64,000 bases of DNA from Deltaproteobacteria bacterium (GTDB lineage Bacteria > Myxococcota > Myxococcia > Myxococcales > SZAS-1): assembly GCA_018266075.1 (NCBI GenBank), contig JAFEBB010000007.1, positions 1 through 64,000 of the forward strand, given 5' to 3'. The stretch's first letter is position 1. Each line of letters starts with the position of its first letter. The notes beneath the pieces were generated by a model. That model saw only the letters and a program-made list of their open reading frames with translations. It had not been told where the DNA came from and ran no database searches. The translations under genes and the position numbers were made by a program. This document shows, one piece after another, positions 19,287 through 56,264 of the stretch.

Positions 19287-21830
19287 TCAGCGGGCGGTGT
19301 AGATCTCGATCGACGTCGCCCCTGAGCCGATGACCGCCAGATCCGATCGTCCGTCGTGATCGAAGTCCGCAACGACCGCCTGCGTTGGTGAGCTCGACGT
19401 GAAGAAGGCGGCGCCAGCTCCCAGCCCGCCGTCACCCATCCCAGGAAAGACGGTGACCAGGCCCGACGTCCCGCCCGGGACGACGACATCGGCGATCCCG
19501 TCGCCGTTCAGGTCGGCGACCGTGATGCGTGCCGGGGAGCCCAGGCCACTCAGCGGAGGGTTCGACGTGGAGAACGTTCCATCCCCCGCGCCCGACAAGA
19601 CCGTCAGCTCCGCGGTGTGGTTGGGCTCGTAGGCGATCACCAGGTCTGCGTGCGCGCCTGTGTCGAGCTTGCCGAGCGCCATGTCGAGAATGGTGTCCGT
19701 GTAGAGGAGGAGATCCGGACCCGCCGAGAAGCCGCCGTCGCCGTCGTAGAAGTGCGTGCGGCCCTGACCGTAGGCGCTGGACATGAAGACCACGTCGTCG
19801 CTTCCGTCTCCGTTCACGTCACCGACCGAGAAACGATCGGGCCACCAGCCTCCGCTGTAGCCCTGGGGCTCGGCGGCAACGGGTGGCGAGAATCCGCCGT
19901 CGCCGAATCCGAAGAGCACCAAGCCCTGGTAGCCCGCGGTGAAGACGAGGTCCGGGTGGCCATCGGCATTCAAATCGCCGGTGCCGATCCGGTCGGGTGC
20001 GAGTCCGTTCCACCAGAAGTTCGGTGATGCGAGTCCACCGTCGGAGAGGGCGAAGAGCGTCGCGAAGCCGGCGTCGCCCTGGAACGCCACCACGGCATCG
20101 TCCCGACCATCACCGTCCACGTCTGTGAGCACCGCGCTGGCAGGGCGATGCGTTGCAGCACCACCCGTCGCATAGAGCGGGTGGGGGCTGTACAGGAAGC
20201 CCGCATCCGGAAGGCCGAGGAACTCGTAGGCGTATGAGCTGTTCGAGCAGACGGCCATCAGATCGGGAAGTCCATCGCCGTTGATGTCACCGGTGGCCAG
20301 TTCGTTGGGCGTGCAACCCAGGCCGAGCTGGACCGCGCTGGAGAAGCCCGCCGAGGCCTGGCTCTGGCCGAGCAACACGCCGTTCTGGGTGCACGCCGCG
20401 AAGTCGAGCTTGCCGTCTCCGTCGAAGTCGCCGGTGGCCAGGCAGGTGCTCGAGGCCGGGAGATCGATGGCGAGCGGCGCCGCGAACGAGGAGCCCAGGT
20501 TCTTGAGCTCGAGCAGGCTCGAACCCGAAGTCGCCAGGAGATCCGGCAGACAGTCGCCGTCGAGGTCGAGCGTGGTGAGCCCCGAGATGGGACCACTGAG
20601 CGTCTGCACCAGCGAGAAGTTCCCGGTGCCGTCGTTGTGCAGCACCTCGAGTCCATGCGTGGTCGTCGCGAGGGCCACGTCCGGGTTGCCGTCGCCATCC
20701 CAATCGCCCACGGCCATGCCGTTCAGGTCGTACGAGAGATGCACGCCGAAGGGCGGCTGAAGCGTTCCGTCGCCCCGGCCGGCGCAGATCTCGAGGAAGC
20801 CGTTTGCAGGATTCGCGAAGAGGACGTCGGCGCGGCCATCGCCCGTCACGTCGGCGGCAGCCATGGGAACGGCGCTGTAAGCGGTGCCGCCCGATGCCGC
20901 GAGGAGGTTCGACGTGACCGAGAGACTCCCTCGGCCGTTGTTCAAGAGCACGTAGAGCACGCCGCTCCGTCCACCGAGAACCGCGAGATCTGGCGCTCCG
21001 TCACCGTTGAAGTCCGCAGCTGTGACGCTGCTTGGCCAGGTGTTCTGCGGAAAGCTCACCGAGGTGGAGATGACGAAGTTGCCGGTGCCATCGTTGAACC
21101 AGATCTGGAGCATGTCGGCATCCGGGTCCGGGAGCATGACGTCGAGGTAGCCGTCGCCGTTGACGTCGACGAGGAGCGCGCCGGTCACCTCGTAGCTCAA
21201 GGGAAGGGTTTGCATCTGGGTGAGCACGCCGCTCGCGTTGCTCAGGTACACGGCGACGCCGCCGGGATACCCGGGGATGCCCACGAGCAGGTCCGTCTTG
21301 CCGTCGTGGTTGAGATCGCCGGTGGCGAGGACCGTGGGCGCCGAGGGCGTCGCCAGATTGCTGACCGGTGTGAAGCCAGGCAGTCCGCCGTCGGCCACGG
21401 GCACGCAGGCGGGCGCACCTGTCGTCGAGCCTCCAGTGCTTCCGCTGCTCCCGGAGGAGCTCGCGGAGACCGTCGAGGACGTGCTCGCTCCGGATGAGCC
21501 GCTCCCGGAGGATGCGGAGGTGTTGCCGGTGGTGCTCGAGGAGGAGCCGCTGCCGCTCGAGGCGGCGGTCGATGTCGATGTGCTCGAGCTCGCGGTCGTG
21601 CTGCTCGAAGCGCTCGACTCCGAAGTTCCTGTCGAGCCCGTGCTCGCGCTGGCGGTGGAGCTGCCGGTGCTCGCGCCGGACGTTCCCGAACCCGTCGATG
21701 ACGTCGACGGCGTCGATGACGTCGACGAGGTGGATGTCGCCGTGGCGGTGGTCGAGCTGGTGGACGTTGCGGCCGTGCCGCTGCACGCGACGAGGACGAC
21801 GGATGCGACGCTGAGGAGACGGGTCTTCAT
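19287..21830 (-). CDS. VCBS/FG-GAP repeat lipoprotein, third gene of the operon
   Basis: This 847-residue protein has a signal peptide with lipobox LVAC (Cys16), a tether of about 130 residues made of Ser, Thr, Ala and Gly, and then about 13 VCBS/FG-GAP-type repeats. Each repeat carries a calcium-loop signature of the DLNGDGxPDL kind (DVNGDGYLDVMLPD, DFNGDGAPDLAVLG, DLNADGHPDLVF). Such repeats build beta-propellers like integrin alpha heads and bind calcium, giving a surface adhesion or scaffold role. ATG 21830 overlaps the stop of the upstream gene by four bases (ATGA), so the three VCBS genes are one translationally coupled unit. It differs in sequence from its two paralogues. Confidence 0.9.
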   Translation of the reverse strand: MKTRLLSVASVVLVACSGTAATSTSSTTATATSTSSTSSTPSTSSTGSGTSGASTGSSTASASTGSTGTSESSASSSTTASSSTSTSTAASSGSGSSSSTTGNTSASSGSGSSGASTSSTVSASSSGSSGSTGGSTTGAPACVPVADGGLPGFTPVSNLATPSAPTVLATGDLNHDGKTDLLVGIPGYPGGVAVYLSNASGVLTQMQTLPLSYEVTGALLVDVNGDGYLDVMLPDPDADMLQIWFNDGTGNFVISTSVSFPQNTWPSSVTAADFNGDGAPDLAVLGGRSGVLYVLLNNGRGSLSVTSNLLAASGGTAYSAVPMAAADVTGDGRADVLFANPANGFLEICAGRGDGTLQPPFGVHLSYDLNGMAVGDWDGDGNPDVALATTTHGLEVLHNDGTGNFSLVQTLSGPISGLTTLDLDGDCLPDLLATSGSSLLELKNLGSSFAAPLAIDLPASSTCLATGDFDGDGKLDFAACTQNGVLLGQSQASAGFSSAVQLGLGCTPNELATGDINGDGLPDLMAVCSNSSYAYEFLGLPDAGFLYSPHPLYATGGAATHRPASAVLTDVDGDGRDDAVVAFQGDAGFATLFALSDGGLASPNFWWNGLAPDRIGTGDLNADGHPDLVFTAGYQGLVLFGFGDGGFSPPVAAEPQGYSGGWWPDRFSVGDVNGDGSDDVVFMSSAYGQGRTHFYDGDGGFSAGPDLLLYTDTILDMALGKLDTGAHADLVIAYEPNHTAELTVLSGAGDGTFSTSNPPLSGLGSPARITVADLNGDGIADVVVPGGTSGLVTVFPGMGDGGLGAGAAFFTSSSPTQAVVADFDHDGRSDLAVIGSGATSIEIYTAR

Positions 21831-46994: not shown

Positions 46995-49529
46995 ATGCGC
47001 CGCGCTCTGCTGCTCTCCACCCTCATCCTCGCTGCGGGCTGCGGCTCGACGCCGGTCAAGGAGACGAGCGCGTCCTCGGGCTCCACGGGATCGCACACCG
47101 CCTGCGTCCCCGGACAATCGATCTCGTGCACGGGGCAGGGCGGCTGCGCCGGATTCCAGTCGTGCAAGGCCGACGGCAGCGGCTACTTTTCCTGCGACTG
47201 CAGCGGAACCACATCGACGACGGCATCGGGGGCCTCGAGCGGCAGCGCTTCGACCACGAGCTCCGGCAGCAGCGGCGCGGCGTCGACCAGCGCGACCACC
47301 ACCGGGTCCACGGGCGCCACCAGCGCCACCACGTCGACCGGCTCGACCACCACGGCGACCATCGGCTCCACCGGCGTGACCACCGCAGCCAACACCACGG
47401 GCAGCACGTCGACGACAGGCACGACCGGCTCGACGGGCACCAGCAGCACCAGCACGACCACGTCGACCACCACCGGCACATCGTCGAGCAGCACCACGAC
47501 GACGACCGGCACCACGGGCACCACGGGCTCGGGCTGCGCGTCCGATGTCGAGTGCCAGCAGGCTCACGGCGGCTCGCCGGCGTGGTTCTGCGCCCCGGGC
47601 GGCGCGGGCACCTGCGAGCTCGGCTGCGTCGCCGACGCGCTCTGCAGCCCGCCCCAGACCGGCTGCTGCAACCTTCCCAATGGCCAGAGCTGCAACCCCA
47701 GCACGCACGCGTGCCAGGTCGTGGGCACGACGACCACCACCACGACCGGCACGACCGGAACCACGGGCACCACCGGCACGACCGGCACGACCGGCACGAG
47801 TGGCTCCACGGGCATCACCGACTGCCCGCCGCTCCCCGACGGCGGCGCTCGCGCCATCACCGACAACGCGGGCTGCGACTTCTGGGGCGCGGTGCTCTCG
47901 AACAGCGGCCTGGCTGCCGAGTTCACAAATACCGGCGACGGCGGCAGCGAGTTCGCGATCGTGGTGACCAACCCCGACCCGCAGGTGACGGCACACGCCA
48001 CCGTGAACAGCAACGGCCGGACGCTGGGCACCGCCGCGGTCCCTCCCGGTGGCTCGACGGCGATCCATCTGCCCTGGCAGCAGATCTGCGGCACCGGCAA
48101 CGCCAACTACGGCTTCCACGTCACCACCGACGTGCCCGTGACCGCCTACCAGTTCAACCCGCTCGAGACCGGCCTGCCCAACGGCACCTCGTGCAGCACC
48201 GACGCCGACTGCACCACCTTCGGCGCCTCGGCGTTCTGCAAGAACAGCCAGTGCTACGACGGCGCCTACAGCGCCGACGCGTCCATGCTGCTCCCCACGC
48301 GCGCGCTGGGCACGAGCTATGCGGTGATGGCCGCGAACGAAGAGACCGTCGACGAGGGCACCGGCGCGGTGCCGCTCCCGGGAATCATGGCCATCGTGGC
48401 CACCCAGAACGGCACGCAGGTGACGGTGCACTTCGCGGGTTCGGCCATCTCCACCACGCAGTCGGCTTCGCTCAGCTCCTGCCCCTCGGGCACGACGGTG
48501 GGGAACCTCACCGGAGCGGCGTCGAACTCGACCGTCGTCTACAGCCTCAACGCGGGCGACATGCTGCACTTCTGGAACGGCCAGACGGGCGCGGCCATCA
48601 ACACCGCGCCCAACGGCATCGCGGGGACCGGCGGCTCGGCCACGGCGTCTCTCTACGCCGACGACTTCAGCGGCAGCCTGGTGACCAGCAACCTCCCGGT
48701 CGCCGTCTTCGGCGGCGCGGACTGCACCTTCGAGCCCTTCGACCAGTACGCGTGCGACCACATCGAGGAGCAGGTGCTGCCGTACACCTCGTGGGGCCGC
48801 ACCTATGTGGGCGTGAAGAGCCAGACCTACGCAGGCGCGACCGCGGTCTATCCGGACTATTGGCGCGTGATGGCCGCGTGCGGCGCTGGGTCGTGCCCGA
48901 ACGGGACCACGGTCACCGTCGTCCCGGTGATTGGCCGCGCGCGCTACGCGCCCTCGTGCAACGGCGCCTGCAGCTGCACCACCACGAATGGCGTGACCAC
49001 CTGCCACCTGCCGCCCGTCGCGTCGGGCCAGACGGCGCCCTGGATCGAGTTCCAGCACGGCAGCTCGTTCGTGGCCTCGTCCGACAACGCCATCTCCGTG
49101 GCGCAGTACATGGTCTCCGAGAGCGTGGCCGGCGTGACCGCGAGCGGGCTCCCCTCGGCCGCGGTGGGCGATCCCTCGCTGGTGATCATGCCGCCCATGG
49201 AGCAGTGGCGGACCAACTACACCGTGCTCGCGCCCACGACCTACGCGTCGAACTACGTGAACCTCGCGGTGCAGGGTCAGGCGGCGACGTCGCAGGTGTT
49301 CGTGGACAGCGCGCCGGTGCCGTCGAACGAGTGGGCGCAAGTGCCCAACAGCAACGTGTATGTGGCGGTGCACGTGCTCGGGAACGTCGGCTCGGGCGTG
49401 CACGCGATCGTGGGCAACGGCGGCACGCCGGTGGGCGCGGTGATCTACGGCTACGACTCGTACGTGTCGTACGGCTACACCGGCGGCTCGGGGCTGCAGG
49501 TGATCAACACCGCGCAGCTCGGGAACTAA
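46995..49529 (+). CDS. IgGFc-binding-like tether lipoprotein
   Basis: ATG 46995 with AAGGA before it starts an 844-residue lipoprotein (lipobox AAGC, Cys16). A first tether of about 115 residues is mostly Thr/Ser/Gly/Ala and is interrupted by a Cys module (CASDVECQQAHGG ... CNLPNGQSC). A second Thr/Gly tether follows (TTTTTGTTGTTG). The C-terminal 560 residues match the N-terminal domain of IgGFc-binding proteins (NSNGRTLGTAAVPPGGSTAI, LLPTRALGTSYAVMAANEE, VAVFGGADCTFEPF, VLPYTSWGRTYVGVKS, GYDSYVSYGYTGG). In bacteria this domain occurs on surface proteins and may bind glycans or proteins. Confidence 0.85.
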   Translation: MRRALLLSTLILAAGCGSTPVKETSASSGSTGSHTACVPGQSISCTGQGGCAGFQSCKADGSGYFSCDCSGTTSTTASGASSGSASTTSSGSSGAASTSATTTGSTGATSATTSTGSTTTATIGSTGVTTAANTTGSTSTTGTTGSTGTSSTSTTTSTTTGTSSSSTTTTTGTTGTTGSGCASDVECQQAHGGSPAWFCAPGGAGTCELGCVADALCSPPQTGCCNLPNGQSCNPSTHACQVVGTTTTTTTGTTGTTGTTGTTGTTGTSGSTGITDCPPLPDGGARAITDNAGCDFWGAVLSNSGLAAEFTNTGDGGSEFAIVVTNPDPQVTAHATVNSNGRTLGTAAVPPGGSTAIHLPWQQICGTGNANYGFHVTTDVPVTAYQFNPLETGLPNGTSCSTDADCTTFGASAFCKNSQCYDGAYSADASMLLPTRALGTSYAVMAANEETVDEGTGAVPLPGIMAIVATQNGTQVTVHFAGSAISTTQSASLSSCPSGTTVGNLTGAASNSTVVYSLNAGDMLHFWNGQTGAAINTAPNGIAGTGGSATASLYADDFSGSLVTSNLPVAVFGGADCTFEPFDQYACDHIEEQVLPYTSWGRTYVGVKSQTYAGATAVYPDYWRVMAACGAGSCPNGTTVTVVPVIGRARYAPSCNGACSCTTTNGVTTCHLPPVASGQTAPWIEFQHGSSFVASSDNAISVAQYMVSESVAGVTASGLPSAAVGDPSLVIMPPMEQWRTNYTVLAPTTYASNYVNLAVQGQAATSQVFVDSAPVPSNEWAQVPNSNVYVAVHVLGNVGSGVHAIVGNGGTPVGAVIYGYDSYVSYGYTGGSGLQVINTAQLGN

Positions 49530-50845
49530 CCGAGGTCGGTCGCGTCGCCCACGAAGACGTCGCGCTCGACCTTCTCGCCCGCCTCGTCGAGCCGCGAGGG
49601 CAGGGTGCGCAGCACGGGATAGCCGTGCACGAACTCGTTGAACGCCTTCTGCGGCAGGTAGCAGAGCGTGGTCGGCTCCGGCGCCCAGATGCTCGCCCGC
49701 GTCGGCAGGCCCGCCAGCGCCGAGACCACGCCGTAGTAGCGGCCGCGTGAGAGGTCGGCGAGGGTCTTGTCCTTGCCTGGGCTGTCGCGACGGCTCACCA
49801 CCACCCGTCCGGACGTGATGAGGGCGATGCCGTTCTGCACCTCGCCCGGCGAGAGCAGCACCTCGCCCGCGGCGACCTTGCGATCCTCGAAGTGCGAGAT
49901 GAGCGCCGCGCGGCCCACGGCGTCGAGGTTGCGGAACAGCGGGCTCGCCGCGAGGAAGCTCTCCAGCAGCCGCTCCTTGAAGTAGCGCGCCAGTGCCTGG
50001 CGAACCGAGGGGTAGCCGCGCGCGGCGGCGTCGAGGCGCGCCGCGCGGAACTCGAGCACGCTCGCTTCGCCAATGGCACGGACGGTGGCCGTGCGCACCT
50101 TGCGCGTGAGCAGCCCGAAGAGCCCGAACGGCTCGTTGTCGCGCACGTGCAGCAGCGCCACCTCGCCGTCCGGCCCGGAGCAGACGACCTCCATCACGCC
50201 GCTCTCGACGACGAAGAACGACTCCGCGCCGGCGCCCTCGCGGAAGGCCGGCTGCCTATTGACCAAATGGTGTCGAACGACGCCGGGCACCAGCGTCTGC
50301 AACGCCTCGGACGCGAAGTCCTGTAGCACCTTCGCGCGCTGCAGCGCGGCCATCGCTTCTGCCTCGTCGGCGTGCTCGCTCACCACCTCGAGCTCGTCGT
50401 CGTCGAGGGCCAGGTGCTCGCCTTCGTCGTCCTCGTAGTAGTCGGCGTCGGCTTCTTCCTCGGCCAGCGCCTCGGCCTCGAGCAGCTCCTCCTCCTCGCG
50501 GGCGATGGCCTCGAGGATGTCCTGGGGGATGAGCGAGCGCGTCGAGGTCAAAGGGATCTCCACCGGCTCTGGCTGAAACGCATCGAACTTGCCCGTGCGG
50601 TGGAACTCTACGCCCACGCTCTCGGGGTCGAACACTTCATCCGGCAGGAGCGGCACATCGCCCGTGATGTGCAGCTCCACGCCCAGCTCGTCGGCGTCGT
50701 GGATGCGCGCCAGCTCGTGGGCGGGAACGGGCTCGGTCTCGGGGCGGGCGAGGGCGCGGGCGCGCTTGGTGTTCTCGCGCTCGCCCGTGGCCTTGAAGGT
50801 GCCCAGCGGTGTGTGGGGACGGCGGAACCGAGGCTCGCCTTCCAT
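49526..50845 (-). CDS. Protein with two cyclic-nucleotide-binding domains and acidic linker
   Basis: The 439-residue cytoplasmic protein starts at ATG 50845. The N-terminal 190 residues are Glu/Asp-rich and partly low-complexity (EAIAREEEELLEAEALAEEEADADYYEDDE). Two cNMP-binding (CAP_ED) domains follow: about 190-310 (ESFFVVESGVMEVVCSGPDGEVALLHVRDNEPFGLFGLL) and about 320-435 (LFRNLDAVGRAALISHF, GEVLLSPGEVQNGIALITSGRVVV). No helix-turn-helix is present, so it is not a CRP-type transcription factor; it may be a cAMP or c-di-GMP sensing scaffold. It overlaps by four bases the convergent IgGFc-like gene and is divergent from the M16 operon. Confidence 0.85.
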   Translation of the reverse strand: MEGEPRFRRPHTPLGTFKATGERENTKRARALARPETEPVPAHELARIHDADELGVELHITGDVPLLPDEVFDPESVGVEFHRTGKFDAFQPEPVEIPLTSTRSLIPQDILEAIAREEEELLEAEALAEEEADADYYEDDEGEHLALDDDELEVVSEHADEAEAMAALQRAKVLQDFASEALQTLVPGVVRHHLVNRQPAFREGAGAESFFVVESGVMEVVCSGPDGEVALLHVRDNEPFGLFGLLTRKVRTATVRAIGEASVLEFRAARLDAAARGYPSVRQALARYFKERLLESFLAASPLFRNLDAVGRAALISHFEDRKVAAGEVLLSPGEVQNGIALITSGRVVVSRRDSPGKDKTLADLSRGRYYGVVSALAGLPTRASIWAPEPTTLCYLPQKAFNEFVHGYPVLRTLPSRLDEAGEKVERDVFVGDATDLG

Positions 50846-50923
50846 GGGAAGCACCCCGCCCGGGTGGCCTGGCCCGGAGTGGCGCTTATGGCGGAAAGGT
50901 GACTGCCAAGTCAACCAAGCGTG

Positions 50924-50973
50924 ACCCGGGCGTGTCCCGGGTGGAACTTCCTTGCGAACACCGGGACACGCCC
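50924..50973. promoter_or_regulatory. Two mutually exclusive inverted repeats between divergent genes
   Basis: GGGCGTGTCCCGG (50928-50940) pairs perfectly with CCGGGACACGCCC (50961-50973) across 20 bases. Overlapping its left arm, ACCCGGG (50924-50930) pairs with CCCGGGT (50936-50942) around a 5-base loop. The two structures cannot form together. They lie 31-81 bases before the first M16 ATG (51005) and 79 bases upstream of the start at 50845. An operator for a dimeric regulator, or a switchable leader hairpin, would fit. Confidence 0.5.
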
Positions 50974-51004
50974 CTAGCGTTCCGGCTCCCACGCAGGAGG
51001 CCGC

Positions 51005-52282
51005 ATGGCGAAGCCCGCGCGCGCCGCGATCTCTCCCGACTTGTTCCCGGTGCACGAGCACACGCTGCCCAACGGGCTGCGGGTTCGGCTCATGCCCGAC
51101 CACGCCGTGCCCACGGTGAGCTACTACACGTTCTTCCGCGTGGGCTCGCGCAACGAGCGGCCGGGCATCACCGGGATCGCTCACCTGTTCGAGCACATGA
51201 TGTTCAACGGCGCGGCCAAGTACGGGCCCAAGGAGTTCGACCGCGTGCTGGAGAGCCACGGCGGCTACTCCAACGCCTACACCTCGAACGACGTCACCGC
51301 GTACTACGAGGACTTCAGCTCCAGCGCGCTGGAGAAGGTCATCGACCTCGAGAGCGATCGCATGCGCTCGCTGGCGATCACGCCGGAGACGCTGAAGCAG
51401 GAGCGCGAGGTCGTCAAAGAGGAGCGCCGGCTCCGCACCGACAACGACATTTTGGGCATGCTCGACGAGCAGCTCGGCGCGACGCTGTACCTCGCGCACC
51501 CGTATCGCTGGCCGGTCATCGGCTGGATGGGCGACATCGAGCGCATCAGCCGCGAGGACTGCCTCGCGTTCTTCCGCACCTACTACGCGCCCAACAACGC
51601 CACGCTCTTCGTGTGCGGCGACTTCGAGCCGAACGCGGCGCTGGCGCTGATCCAGAAGTACTACGGCGACATTCCCTCGGGCCCCGAGGCGCCCGAGGTG
51701 CCCGCCTACGAGCCGCCGCAGAAGGGCGAGCGTCGCGCGCAGGTGCGCTATCCCGCGCAGGCGAGCGCGGTGGCGATGGGCTGGCATGCGCCCAAGGCTT
51801 CCGACCCGCTCACGCCGGTGATGGACGTGCTCCAGTACGCGCTCTCGGCGGGCGAGGGCGCGCTGCTCACCAAGCGGCTCGTGTACCAGGACGAGCTCGC
51901 GGTGAACGTGATGGTCGACTACAGCTGGCGAATCGATCCCGGCGCGTTCTCGGTCTACGTGGAGCTCAAGCCCGGCGTGGACCCCAAGAAGGCCGAGGCC
52001 GCGGTGGACAAGGTGCTGCAGGGCGTGGCCGAGAAGGGCCTCGCGTCAGCGGACCTGGAGCGCGCGAAAAATCTCCTCCGTTCGCGCGCGTTGCGCGAGC
52101 TGGCCACGCACAACGGCCGCGCGCACGCGTACGGCAACGCCGAGGTGTTCATGGGCGATTGGCGGCTCGCGCTGGCGATGATCGACCACTACCAGGCCGT
52201 GACCAACGCGCAGGTGAAGGCCGCGGCGAAGTCGCTCTTCGAAGCGGGCAGGAAGAACGTCGTGACGCTTGTTCCGTCCTAA
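51005..52282 (+). CDS. M16-family zinc peptidase, catalytic partner
   Basis: The 425-residue protein has the inverted zinc motif HLFEH (His60, Glu63, His64) with the third ligand Glu138/139 in VVKEERR about 75 residues on. This is the signature of M16B peptidases such as processing peptidase beta and PqqF-like proteins. No signal peptide is visible. It lies upstream of a second M16 protein lacking the zinc motif, the usual catalytic/structural pair forming a closed clam-shell. It probably degrades or processes small peptides. A strong inverted repeat precedes it. Confidence 0.93.
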   Translation: MAKPARAAISPDLFPVHEHTLPNGLRVRLMPDHAVPTVSYYTFFRVGSRNERPGITGIAHLFEHMMFNGAAKYGPKEFDRVLESHGGYSNAYTSNDVTAYYEDFSSSALEKVIDLESDRMRSLAITPETLKQEREVVKEERRLRTDNDILGMLDEQLGATLYLAHPYRWPVIGWMGDIERISREDCLAFFRTYYAPNNATLFVCGDFEPNAALALIQKYYGDIPSGPEAPEVPAYEPPQKGERRAQVRYPAQASAVAMGWHAPKASDPLTPVMDVLQYALSAGEGALLTKRLVYQDELAVNVMVDYSWRIDPGAFSVYVELKPGVDPKKAEAAVDKVLQGVAEKGLASADLERAKNLLRSRALRELATHNGRAHAYGNAEVFMGDWRLALAMIDHYQAVTNAQVKAAAKSLFEAGRKNVVTLVPS

Positions 52283-52313
52283 CCAGCCACCAGCCACCGA
52301 CCCGAGCGAACCT

Positions 52314-53648
52314 GTGACCCAGAACGGAACCCCGCTCTCGCTTCCCGCCACGCGCACCAGCCAGCTCGCGAACGGCATGCACCTCGTCATCGCCGAACGG
52401 CCCGGGCTGCCGCTCGTCGCGGTTCGGCTCGAGCTCACCAGCGGCACCGCACACGACCCGCGCGGAAAGGCCGGGCTCGCCGAGTTCACCGCCCAGCTCC
52501 TGCGCCGCGGGACCAAGACGCGCACCGCAGATCAGATCGACGAAGCCATCGAGCGCGTGGGCGGCTCGCTCGGCATCGACGTCGATGCGGACTCCACCGC
52601 GATCGGCGCGAGCCTGCCCAGCGAGCACTTGCCCGTGGCCGTGCAGATCCTCGCGGACCTCGCGCAGCAGCCGAAGTTCGCGCCGAATGAAGTCGCGGCG
52701 GCCAAGGCGCGCACCCTGGCCGGGCTCGCGAACGATCTCGACGATCCCTCGAGCGTCGCCGACAAGGCCATCTCCCACTTCGCGCTCGGCGCGCATCCGT
52801 ACGCGCACCCGGGCGGCGGCTTCTCGCGCACGGTGAAGACCTTCACGCGCGCGGAGGTCGTGGAGCACCACGCTCGCGCGTTCGGGCCGGACTGCGCGGC
52901 GTTGTACGTGGTGGGCGATCTCGGCGGCGCGGACGTGGAAGCGCTGGTGCAGAAGCGCTTCGGCAAGTGGACGCGCGCGGCGCCGCCGTTCGAGGAGACG
53001 CCCGAGGTGACGGAGCCGACGGAGCGGCAGGTGATCGTCGTCGACAAGGGCGACGCCAGCCAGACGCAGATCCGCGTGGCCTCCAGCGGTATCCCGCGCA
53101 ACTCGCCGCAGTACTTCGACTGCATGGTGGCCGCGGGCGTGCTCGGCGGCGGCTTCACCAGCCGCTTGATGGAAGAGATCCGCGTCAACCGCGGCTTGAG
53201 CTACGGCGTGAGCTCGCGCTTCTACAGCATGCGCCGCGGCGGTGAGTTCGCCATCTCCACGTTCACCAAGAACGAGACCGTCATCGAGGCGCTTCAAGTC
53301 TCGCTGGAGACGGCGCGGGCGCTCGCGGCGCAGGGCCCGACGGCCGAAGAGATGGCTCGCACGCGGACCTACGTGAACGGGCTCTTTCCGCTGCAGCTCG
53401 AGACCAACGAGCAGCTCGCGCGGATGATGGCCGACCTGCGGCTGTACGGCATCGGCGACGAGTACGTGGCCACGTTCCGCGATCGCGTGTCGGCGGTGAC
53501 GGCGGAGCAGGTGAAGGCCGCGGCCCAGGCGCACTTCCCGCTCGAGGCGTACACGATCGTCTGCGTGGGCCCGGCGAAGCATCTGAAGACCGCGCTCGAG
53601 CCGTTCGGCGCCAAGGTGCAGGTGCGCAAGCTCTCGGAGCTCAGCTAG
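52314..53648 (+). CDS. M16-family peptidase partner, non-catalytic
   Basis: This protein of about 444 residues has the M16 fold but reads AGLAEF where HXXEH should be, so it lacks the zinc site. It keeps the C-terminal substrate-binding pair, Arg and Tyr, in RVNRGLSYGVSS. This is the expected partner of the catalytic protein at 51005. GTG 52314 is the likelier start; a TTG at 52269 inside the preceding gene is possible. The gap from the first M16 stop carries tandem ACCAGCC-like bases. The pseudouridine synthase gene begins on the base after its stop. Confidence 0.9.
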   Translation: MTQNGTPLSLPATRTSQLANGMHLVIAERPGLPLVAVRLELTSGTAHDPRGKAGLAEFTAQLLRRGTKTRTADQIDEAIERVGGSLGIDVDADSTAIGASLPSEHLPVAVQILADLAQQPKFAPNEVAAAKARTLAGLANDLDDPSSVADKAISHFALGAHPYAHPGGGFSRTVKTFTRAEVVEHHARAFGPDCAALYVVGDLGGADVEALVQKRFGKWTRAAPPFEETPEVTEPTERQVIVVDKGDASQTQIRVASSGIPRNSPQYFDCMVAAGVLGGGFTSRLMEEIRVNRGLSYGVSSRFYSMRRGGEFAISTFTKNETVIEALQVSLETARALAAQGPTAEEMARTRTYVNGLFPLQLETNEQLARMMADLRLYGIGDEYVATFRDRVSAVTAEQVKAAAQAHFPLEAYTIVCVGPAKHLKTALEPFGAKVQVRKLSELS

Positions 53649-54350
53649 GTGCCCGACATCCGCGTGCTGTACGAGGACCCGGGCCTGCTCGTGGTCGACA
53701 AGCCGGCCGGGCTGCTGACGATTCCGGGCCGCGGACCGGACGCCGGACCCGACGCGCAGCACGTGCTCGAGGGCCAGCGCGGCGAGCGGCTCTGGGTGGT
53801 GCACCGGCTCGATCGCGGGACGTCGGGCGCGCTCGCGTTCGCGCGGAATCCCGCGGTGCATCGCACGCTCTCGATGGCGTTCGAGCACGGCAAGGTTGAG
53901 AAGCGCTACCAGGCGCTCGCGTTCGGGATCGTCATCGACGACGAGGGCGTGATCGATCGTGCGCTGGTGCCCGCGCGGCGCGGCAAGATGCGGCCGGCGA
54001 TGCCGAGCGAGGACGGCAAGCCCTCGCGGACGCGCTTTCGGGTGCTCGAGCGCTTCGCTGCGGGCTACACGTGGCTGGAGCTCGAGCCGGAGACGGGACG
54101 TCAGCACCAGATCCGCGTGCACCTGGCGTCGATTGGGCACCCGCTCGCGGTGGACGAGATGTACCGGAGCGCGTCGCAGCGGACGGCGATGGAGCTGGGC
54201 GGGCAGGGCGACGAGGTGATCCTCGCGCGGACGCCGCTGCACTGCGCGCGGATGGTGTTGCCACTTGGCGAGAAGAGCGTGACCGTGGAGGCGCCGCTGG
54301 TGGAGGACCTCGCGCGCGCGCTGGAGATCTTGCGGCGGGCGGGCGCCTGA
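53649..54350 (+). CDS. RluA-family pseudouridine synthase
   Basis: The 233-residue enzyme has the RluA core: YEDPGLLVVDKPAGLL, the catalytic VHRLDRGTSGAL with Asp55, KRYQAL, and TGRQHQIRVHLASIGHPLAVD. It converts uridine to pseudouridine in rRNA or tRNA; the target base cannot be told. No S4 domain precedes it, so it resembles the short RluA/TruC/RsuA-like group. GTG 53649 follows directly after the M16 stop, suggesting co-translation, though the functional link is not obvious. It converges on the gene ending at 54354. Confidence 0.92.
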   Translation: MPDIRVLYEDPGLLVVDKPAGLLTIPGRGPDAGPDAQHVLEGQRGERLWVVHRLDRGTSGALAFARNPAVHRTLSMAFEHGKVEKRYQALAFGIVIDDEGVIDRALVPARRGKMRPAMPSEDGKPSRTRFRVLERFAAGYTWLELEPETGRQHQIRVHLASIGHPLAVDEMYRSASQRTAMELGGQGDEVILARTPLHCARMVLPLGEKSVTVEAPLVEDLARALEILRRAGA

Positions 54351-54353
54351 CGA

Positions 54354-55286
54354 CTAGCCGAAGATCGGCCCCTTGTTCGTCTTCGTCCCCTTCTTCGGCG
54401 CGGTCTCGAAGGCCTGGTCCTTGTTGCTCCACTCCTTCTGCACCGCGAAGCCATCCACCTTGCCGTACACGCTCTTGAGCGGCAGCGCGTCGATGGCCTC
54501 GTCGCCGATCTCGCCGTTCTGGTCGTTGTACCAGCCGAGCTTCTTGCCCTTGATCGGGCTGTTCACGTCGGGGTCGGTCTCGGCCTCGCTCCACTCGTGC
54601 GACTCGACGATGGAGATCGCGTCGGCGGGCTTGCCGTCGAAGTCGATGCCGTTCTGGCCCTGCCCGTACACGATGGCCGCGTAGTACACGGGCTTGCCGT
54701 CCGGGCCGGCGTAGCTGCCGTGGTAGCCGCCGAGGCCGTTGGTGGAGTCGTTGCTGCCGTCGGTGAGGATGGTGCCCGGCGGGAGAATCACGGTGTGGAT
54801 GGTCTGCGGATCGCTCGACTGCGTGCCGCTGGCGATGGCCTGCTTCACGATGCTCTGGATCTGCGACTCGTTCACTTCCTTGGGCGACGCGCCGGGCACC
54901 ACCGTCGAGCCCGCGAAGCTGCCCTTGCCCACGCCGTACTGCGCGAGCACGCCCATGTACGAGCTCTGCTCGACATCCTTGGCGAACGCGTCGTTGTGGG
55001 TGGAGATGGTCTTGCCCGCGGTCGTGTTCCAGAAGTCGCCCAGGTAGATGTTGTTGATGACCGGCTTGGAGAGCACCGAGCCGCCGCGGCTGGTGAGGTT
55101 GTACTGACCGGAAGCCGCCGTACCCGTGGCCGCCTCGCCCGGCGTCCAGTTCGAGGGCCGCTTCTCGTCACTGTCGAAGCCATCCTTCGTGGTGCGCGGC
55201 GCGTGCGCCTGGGTCTCGGAGACCTCGTCGAGATCCTCGGTGGACTGGGTGGCGCTCACATGGCTCAGGCGGCTGACGCGGCTCAT
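54354..55286 (-). CDS. Metalloprotease-like protein with HExxE-TDP signature
   Basis: ATG 55286 follows GGAGG, giving a 310-residue protein. Its key feature is ESHEWSEAETDP followed by GWYNDQNGEIGDEA. In bacterial EXORDIUM-like proteins and related putative zinc metalloproteases the same order (HExxE, TDP, a Trp-Tyr-Asp turn, EIGD) is conserved, with His and Glu as candidate zinc and catalytic residues. Upstream are SKPVINNIYLGDFWNT and HTVILPPGTILTDGSNDSTNGLGGYHGSY, also in line with that family. The N-terminus (SRVSRLSHVSATQSTEDL) is hydrophilic, not a signal peptide, unlike family members, which are usually secreted. Confidence 0.72.
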   Translation of the reverse strand: MSRVSRLSHVSATQSTEDLDEVSETQAHAPRTTKDGFDSDEKRPSNWTPGEAATGTAASGQYNLTSRGGSVLSKPVINNIYLGDFWNTTAGKTISTHNDAFAKDVEQSSYMGVLAQYGVGKGSFAGSTVVPGASPKEVNESQIQSIVKQAIASGTQSSDPQTIHTVILPPGTILTDGSNDSTNGLGGYHGSYAGPDGKPVYYAAIVYGQGQNGIDFDGKPADAISIVESHEWSEAETDPDVNSPIKGKKLGWYNDQNGEIGDEAIDALPLKSVYGKVDGFAVQKEWSNKDQAFETAPKKGTKTNKGPIFG

Positions 55287-55418
55287 GCATTCCTCCGTGC
55301 GGCGTGACCCTCTCATTCTCGGACGGGCCTGCACGAAGTTGCGTCACGCTGTCCTGAAACCACGCGGTCTACAGGTTGCCAAATCTCGAATCTGTCGCGG
55401 AATCGGTCGATCCGGGGG

Positions 55419-56264
55419 CTAACCCCGCAGGAACTGGAGCAGGAGCTTGTTCACCTCTTCGGGCGCGTCCTGCTGAACCCAGTGGGAGGCGTTGGGGATG
55501 CGCTCGATCCGCAGATCGCGCGCGAAGGGCTCGAGCCCCTCGAGCAGCTCCAGACCCAGCGCGGTGTCGCGCTCGCCCCAGATGAGCATCGTGGGGCGCT
55601 CTGCCGGTGGAAGCTTGAGGTTCACCTTCGGGTAGCGGAACGCGGCGCGGTACCAGTTGAGCGCGCCCGTCGCGGCGCCGGGCTGGGCGTAGGCCTCTTC
55701 GAAGCGGGCGATGTCGGCGTCGCTGAAGCGGACCTTGTTCACGGCCATCCCGCGGAGCGCGCGGCGCATGAAGTTCGGATCGCGGGTGGCGCGCTCGGGC
55801 AGGAACGGGAGCTGGAAGAAGAACATGTACCAGCTCTTCGCGAGCTGCTTGCGCGTGCGGAACGCGCGCAACATCCGGCCCGGCGGCGGAGCGTTCATCA
55901 CCACCAGCTTGTCCACGTGCTCGCCGTGCCGCGCGCCGAAGGTCCACGCGAGCGCGCCGCCCCAGTCGTGGCCGACGACGTGCGCCTTCTCGTGTCCCAG
56001 CGCCTTCAAGAGCCCGACGACATCTTGCTCGATGCGATCGAGCCGGTAGGCGCTCACGTCGCGCGGCTTGTCGCTCTTGTTGTAGCCACGGAGGTCGGGC
56101 GCGATGGCGCAGAAGCCCGCGCTGGCGAGCGCGTCCATCTGGTGGCGCCACGAGTACCAGAACTCGGGAAAGCCGTGCAGGAGCAGCACCGGCTTGCCTT
56201 CGCCCTGGATGGCGACGTTGAGCCGCACCTCGCCCACGTCGATGAGCCGCTCGGTTGGCGCCAT
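55419..56264 (-). CDS. Alpha/beta hydrolase, epoxide-hydrolase-like
   Basis: The 281-residue hydrolase has the oxyanion motif HGFPEFWYSWR, the nucleophile elbow GHDWGG with Asp100, a second GYNKSDKP loop and catalytic His261 in NASHWVQ. An Asp nucleophile with HGFPE and GHDWGG marks the epoxide hydrolase/haloalkane dehalogenase branch. Soluble epoxide hydrolase-like use is most probable. ATG 56264 follows GGAGGGGAC. The frame is open upstream but runs in another gene's shadow. It is the downstream neighbour of the zinc-binding membrane protein gene at 56356. Confidence 0.9.
   Translation of the reverse strand: MAPTERLIDVGEVRLNVAIQGEGKPVLLLHGFPEFWYSWRHQMDALASAGFCAIAPDLRGYNKSDKPRDVSAYRLDRIEQDVVGLLKALGHEKAHVVGHDWGGALAWTFGARHGEHVDKLVVMNAPPPGRMLRAFRTRKQLAKSWYMFFFQLPFLPERATRDPNFMRRALRGMAVNKVRFSDADIARFEEAYAQPGAATGALNWYRAAFRYPKVNLKLPPAERPTMLIWGERDTALGLELLEGLEPFARDLRIERIPNASHWVQQDAPEEVNKLLLQFLRG

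Follow-up and report, generated by a model that had tools for sequence, protein, structure and literature searches.

A candidate composite operator between divergent cNMP-domain and M16 peptidase genes in a Myxococcales genome

The divergent promoter region between a gene for a cNMP-domain protein and a pair of M16 peptidase genes carries an 11-bp word three times, as a tandem pair and an inverted third copy, and with it a perfect 13-bp inverted repeat. We tentatively favor reading this arrangement as a composite DNA operator for a candidate regulator, with a confidence somewhat short of even. An operator array is the most economical reading of the region; from it we infer protein binding, the promoter under control and the direction of that control. 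A dimeric or cooperatively binding regulator would bind the three copies of the word (CGTGwCCCGGk), of which R1 and R2 would be presented head-to-tail at one helical turn and R3 inverted about 30 bp off. From this array the regulator would control the cNMP-domain gene, the M16 operon or both.

Results

The setting of the array

The window, by which we mean the whole stretch of DNA analyzed, comprises the first 64 kb of contig C7 in a genome of 7.84 Mb. Within it, an intergenic region of 159 bp and 70% G+C (50846-51004) lies between divergent genes. The gene on the minus strand (49526..50845) encodes a protein with two stretches matching the cyclic-nucleotide-binding domain PF00027, the only family that Pfam matched in it, and its start at 50845 is backed by codon usage. 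Extension of this gene through the repeat was considered and rejected: the minus frame is open, but by codon usage the intergenic region is non-coding (GC3 of 0.65 versus 0.92 in the cNMP gene). On the plus strand, two M16 peptidase genes, each matching PF00675 and PF05193, occupy 51005..52282 and 52314..53648, the latter start having been inferred by a codon-usage script where the ORF list has 52269. The next gene on the same strand encodes an RNA pseudouridine synthase (53649..54350; PF00849), and the three genes form a plus-strand run spanning 51005-54350. Pfam identified no recognizable DNA-binding regulator among 11 neighboring proteins, three of which had no match. Beyond the cNMP gene, positions 46995-49529 encode a protein with an IgGFc-binding domain (PF17517), preceded by a long stretch rich in Ser, Thr and Gly.

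A sigma-70-like promoter candidate for the cNMP gene is located on the minus strand at 50885..50914, with TTGACT (50914-50909) and CATAAG (50890-50885) separated by 18 nt. It scores 9 of 12 positions, a value reached in 7 of 500 shuffles; it is a consensus match only, and a stricter promoter scan missed it. This candidate lies just left of the array, which would extend from about 42 to 95 bp upstream of the start inferred. For the opposite strand, no promoter-like site (at least 8/12) was found in the 159-bp region. The M16 operon begins to the right, where a Shine-Dalgarno-like AGGAGG (50995..51000, plus strand) precedes the first M16 gene; the ribosome site would thus stand 21 nt, and the start codon 31 nt, past the end of the array. 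A sigma-54 promoter was also considered in the loop of the long repeat (TGGAACTTCCTTGC), where GG-N9-GC can be read by eye. The usual spacing of sigma-54 promoters is GG-N10-GC, and this candidate, being one short, was not adopted.

A perfect 13-bp inverted repeat

The left arm of the repeat (GGGCGTGTCCCGG; 50928..50940, plus strand) and the right arm (50961..50973, minus strand) are separated by a 20-nt loop and pair at 13 of 13 positions, confirming the first-pass description. At the scale of the window such a repeat is not rare. Although it is the sole perfect repeat there with arms of at least 11 and a loop of at most 60, each of 15 dinucleotide shuffles of the window gave between 1 and 8 (mean 3.9, above the single repeat of the window), and arms of at least 13 arose four times altogether. 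Within its own 159-bp intergenic region, the repeat is rare: among 2000 shuffles of that region, none reached 12 bp and 33 reached 10 bp.

A survey of intergenic regions of at least 40 nt was made in an 864-kb genome sample that included the window, with gene calls from a simple script based on codon usage. Perfect arms of at least 12 with a loop of at most 40 numbered 4 in 48 convergent, 5 in 250 tandem and 2 in 134 divergent regions, against shuffled means of 0.0, 0.4 and 0.1, respectively. Some of the repeats in convergent and tandem regions, with T-rich sequence after them, are probably terminators, of which a divergent region has no need.

These figures bear on a chance or mutational origin, in which a GC-rich intergenic stretch would have acquired a quasi-palindrome devoid of function through a template switch and a short tandem duplication. 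We consider such an origin unlikely, if deserving of serious attention. The four arms of at least 13 in the window shuffles are in its favor, the feature was picked from 64 kb, its paired arms are single-copy in the genome and no conservation was seen at M16 loci of other genomes. Set against this are the failure of any of the 2000 region shuffles to reach 12 bp, the rarity of long repeats in divergent regions and the common core of the two that were found.

Three copies of an 11-bp word

A second, 7-bp hairpin (50924..50942, plus strand) has the arms ACCCGGG (50924-50930) and CCCGGGT (50936-50942) on either side of CGTGT. The first-pass annotation reported this hairpin correctly and had it share the left arm of the longer repeat. 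The two structures do overlap, but not through one common arm, as both hairpin arms overlap the long left arm (50928-50930 and 50936-50940). The hairpin is ordinary in itself, arms of at least 7 with a loop of at most 8 being present in 64 of 500 region shuffles. It is better read as the by-product of a tandem repeat, one that would require no function of its own.

The tandem repeat consists of the operator-like modules R1 (CGTGACCCGGG; 50920..50930, plus strand) and, immediately after it, R2 (CGTGTCCCGGG; 50931..50941, plus strand), which agree at 10 of 11 positions. They read CGTGaCCCGGG and CGTGtCCCGGG, each with the palindromic core CCCGGG, and because this core is its own reverse complement, copying it in tandem makes the hairpin. 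The right arm of the long repeat is formed by a third, inverted copy of the word, R3 (CGTGTCCCGGT; 50960..50970, minus strand), again 10/11 to R2.

A tandem 11-mer with 10/11 agreement at offset 11 was matched in 4 of 2000 shuffles, and with offsets 10, 11, 20, 21 and 22 all allowed, 25 of 2000 gave an 11-mer repeat as good. Since 11-bp direct repeats of at least 9/11 occur in 6 of the 134 divergent regions of the genome sample, the tandem alone is not unusual. Shuffling of this region placed three copies of an 11-mer inside 60 nt in 2 of 1500 cases. Three-copy arrays were present in 13 of 384 sampled upstream regions (this one counted) versus 0 to 6 in eight shuffled sets, and such arrays therefore exist elsewhere in the genome, built from other words. 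In one other upstream region (L238 11053-11111), GGTAACGGTGATCGG and its inverted copies make up a three-copy word that may be regarded as a candidate operator of similar general construction.

Recurrence of the arms and words

The search of the genome for the same arms, as proposed in the first-pass annotation, recovered the paired arms once. Single arms, one mismatch being allowed, were more frequent than a reversed-pattern control, with 27 forward and 18 reverse places (45) against 8 and 7 (15), an excess of which base and codon composition is the likely cause. A repeat family or mobile remnant was rejected, the paired arms being single-copy and the other matches of a 125-bp query being pieces of 15-25 nt. 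REP and MITE elements are likewise short intergenic inverted repeats, but the paired arms of the window occur once in the genome. A REP-like word of another kind, GTGGGAGGCGCTTCCCAGCGCCGAC, does recur in this genome (L171 19014-19088, L225 about 84-193 and L170 about 19948-19972); in the first of these places, two copies constitute a 26-bp perfect inverted repeat within a 75-bp element between two genes.

When the arms were relaxed to GTGTCCC-N18-48-GGGACAC, the whole genome contained two places, the window and C8:95118-95173, and none for the reversed-pattern control. The second place (L181 15117-15174) adjoins a Ser/Thr kinase gene and a gene without a Pfam match, and it harbors the only other repeat with arms of at least 12 among the 134 divergent regions sampled. 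Both repeats carry GTGTCCCG...CGGGACAC in the same polarity. The centre-to-centre spacing of the inverted pair is 30 bp in the window versus 48 bp at the second place, and one fixed complex is therefore not suggested.

In the sampled upstream regions, three GTGTCCCG pairs were present when up to one mismatch was allowed, two being the window's own; permuted motifs averaged 0.4, and 6 of 150 of them reached three. No enrichment was detected for single GTGTCCCG sites upstream of sampled genes (6 versus a permuted mean of 6.6) or for pairs with two mismatches in the sampled upstream regions (4 versus a mean of 6.3). The tandem form GTGWCCC-N4-GTGWCCC is found at two places in the genome, window included, and the inverted form of GTGwCCC, with either W, at three distinct places. 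A wider GTGwCCC regulon was considered and rejected, as the extra places (on C122 and C14) sit in coding-looking frames, leaving the window and C8:95118; the tandem place on C122 is just outside a script-called gene and was judged coding from a CxxC-rich open frame.

Across the order, the pattern GTGTCCCG-N16-46-CGGGACAC matched 33 times in the forward direction, in 26 of 142 genomes, and its reversed control matched 4 times. Eight of the 33 represent one conserved site beside a peptidase gene. Several others, judged at the best loci only, are located within coding sequence or where two genes converge, and no common role is therefore read from these matches. One locus, L121, lacked the pattern. 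The conserved site is a 33-bp GTGTCCCG...CGGGACAC repeat with small changes in its loop, situated directly ahead of a peptidase-like gene in eight genomes of the genus g24 (L196, L198, L199 and L202-L206); from the sequences, we take this gene to be of the M28 type and its neighbor to be cysS. Another genome, G003, has two near-identical 52-bp repeats (L188 1501-1552 and G003:C50:3671-3722) with GTGTCCCG/CGGGACAC ends and an inner hairpin, GCCGCAT/ATGCGGC; these perhaps form a small repeat family.

Folding of a putative leader

As RNA, positions 50915-50985 fold at -35.3 kcal/mol (z -2.8), with 2 of 200 shuffles as good, and the 13-bp and 7-bp stems folded alone attain -30.0 and -13.3 kcal/mol. 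The 13-bp stem has a probability of 0.96-0.97 from the five transcript starts tried that include it. A stable fold of this kind, its stem ending 31 nt ahead of the M16 start codon, is consistent with a non-switching hairpin in the M16 leader, a 5' UTR stem that would protect the mRNA or keep the leader open. Transcription of the stem is putative, however, because no plus-strand promoter-like site was found in the region; furthermore, a perfect repeat together with three copies of a word exceeds what a stem needs, and at 78 M16 loci the 220 nt upstream contained nothing alike. Such a leader hairpin is improbable in our estimation, though it merits more than passing consideration.

The first-pass annotation had also proposed that one structure forms at a time, and the 7-bp and 13-bp forms do exclude each other. 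In minimum-energy folds of the growing transcript, the 7-bp hairpin appears first and is displaced by the 13-bp stem once most of the right arm has emerged. This succession would suit a ligand- or condition-switched leader in which the two hairpins swap and alter M16 translation. Forcing the 7-bp form lowered access to the Shine-Dalgarno sequence in 16 of 16 folding contexts (four starts by four ends), from 0.21-0.70 to 0.04-0.19, and for the start at 50879 from 0.62 to 0.07-0.08. The drop was slight in some contexts, two of them passing just from 0.24 to 0.19, and access to the AUG rose in about as many contexts as not. Forcing this form costs 4.5-7.1 kcal/mol in ensemble energy, and its equilibrium probability is about 1e-5 to 5e-5 (four starts that include the 7-bp hairpin). 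As noted above, the hairpin is itself ordinary, and so is the complementarity between leader and ribosome site: complementarity as good was present in 692 of 2000 shuffled leaders and in 102 of 364 other genes, and 164 of 2000 shuffles equaled the loop taken by itself.

Attenuators and riboswitch leaders resemble the region in having mutually exclusive hairpins ahead of an operon. They differ from it in that, here, terminator and Rfam match are absent, the alternative structure is far less stable and transcription is putative. No T-run follows the right arm, CCGGGACACGCCC being succeeded by CTAGCGTTCC. A terminator scan of 48000-56000 returned one site, elsewhere and not at the repeats, and an intrinsic terminator or attenuator was rejected. 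A described RNA family, riboswitch or leader was likewise rejected, an Rfam search of 49500-52400 up to an E-value of 1 having produced only two sub-threshold mir-339 rows at 51926-52020. We hold a switched leader to be highly improbable. In a more specific form, a factor would hold the 7-bp hairpin, or bind the 11-bp tandem words in RNA, and so free the loop UUCCUUGCG (50948-50956) to pair with CGCAGGAG (50992-50999), closing M16 translation, with the same words in DNA serving as an operator. Folding allows such a translational switch as a possibility, its support does not rise above chance, and this dual form is the least credible of the schemes that we weighed.

The first-pass annotation had left the choice between an attenuator-like leader and overlapping operator sites. 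The operator half of that proposal fits the three words, the divergent genes and the second region with the same core, whereas the attenuator half fails for want of a T-run, a terminator and an Rfam match.

Matches to MrpC and FruA consensus sequences

Composite sites of the developmental regulators MrpC and FruA offer a weak lead. In Myxococcus xanthus, MrpC has the consensus TGTYN8RAC and FruA the proposed consensus GGGYRN4-6YGGG, according to PMC4320627. Matches lie at 50933..50947 and 50928..50941, respectively, both on the plus strand, and the two matches overlap in the left arm, as at cooperative M. xanthus sites. Matches to both no more than 10 bp apart arose in 13 of 5000 region shuffles; of 171 upstream regions in a first, 464-kb sample, this region was the only one with such a pair. 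Taken singly, the consensus sequences are too loose here to be telling: a lone MrpC match arose in 212 and a FruA match in 1128 of the 5000 shuffles, and upstream of genes MrpC matches are no commoner than in shuffles (12 versus a mean of 12.9). At relatives' M16 genes the site is not conserved, with an MrpC match in 3 of 47 upstream regions (48 minus L070) against 2.5 expected. Moreover, the right arm is left unexplained, and the motifs were picked after the sequence had been seen.

The genome does contain a gene for a CRP-family protein (L213 1483-2196, minus strand; C14), 64% identical to one in genome G033, and by eye each of these two genes adjoins a sigma-54 activator gene. The established gene order is mrpB-mrpC. 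We consider the CRP-family protein to be MrpC-like from its family and its neighbor, not from a named record. The region upstream of its gene contains a single TGTYN8RAC match, placed toward the far end just as in G033; 183 of 1000 shuffles yield the same number. The enhancer-binding protein MrpB activates mrpC, as described in PMC10701913, and the motif analysis of PMC4320627 detected no motif of the FruA type near the top 500 MrpC sites. A joint MrpC and FruA site in the left arm is, in our view, very unlikely.

Relatives and conservation

Comparison with relatives covered 109 M16 loci from other genomes, 29 of them best matches only and the other 80 the best of 581 relatives; some come from the same genomes and some have little upstream sequence. 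The relatives of the first M16 gene are at most 65% identical (best 80 of 581). A cNMP gene beside the M16 genes was found at none of the 109 loci (tblastn, E 1e-4), and no homologous intergenic region was found among them. Perfect arms of at least 10 in the 220 nt upstream of M16 were present at 6 of 78 loci (the 80 minus two with short upstream sequence), none of them like the 13-bp repeat. Conservation was thus not seen among the M16 loci compared. The 145 genomes of the order that were searched include no second genome of the same family. As for the cNMP protein itself, 115 of the order's 142 genomes, its own counted, contain a match at E <= 1e-20, and the best match outside its own genome shows 45% identity over residues 91-435 of 439.

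Discussion

Taken together, an excess of repeat in the 159-bp region, a tandem 11-mer, a three-copy array and a non-coding setting point to an operator, as does a second divergent region in which the core recurs as an inverted pair. Weighing against an operator, the inverted pair is limited to two places, too few for a regulon, single GTGTCCCG sites are not enriched, and the tandem form recurs once, in a coding-looking frame.

The operators of the OmpR/PhoB family consist of tandem half-sites at 11 bp in a 7 + 4 layout. R1 and R2 are similar in being direct repeats at exactly 11 bp, GTGaCCC-N4-GTGtCCC, with the 10/11 agreement seen in 4 of 2000 shuffles. They are dissimilar in that the third half-site of the array is inverted; the likeness is one of layout only, and a binding protein is putative. 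Among the matches listed in a literature search with CGTGTCCCGG and like words, titles and abstract openings held nothing on this feature. Searches for literature on an M16 peptidase promoter in M. xanthus, or on response regulators with 11-bp direct repeats in that species, found nothing.

If the array is an operator, it would be an ordinary kind of feature, useful for annotation and not a new kind of system. It would define one regulated gene pair, the cNMP-domain protein and the M16 peptidase pair, from a lineage for which the collections searched contain no close relative. It would also supply a candidate half-site, GTGwCCCGG, and a second candidate target ahead of a Ser/Thr kinase gene.
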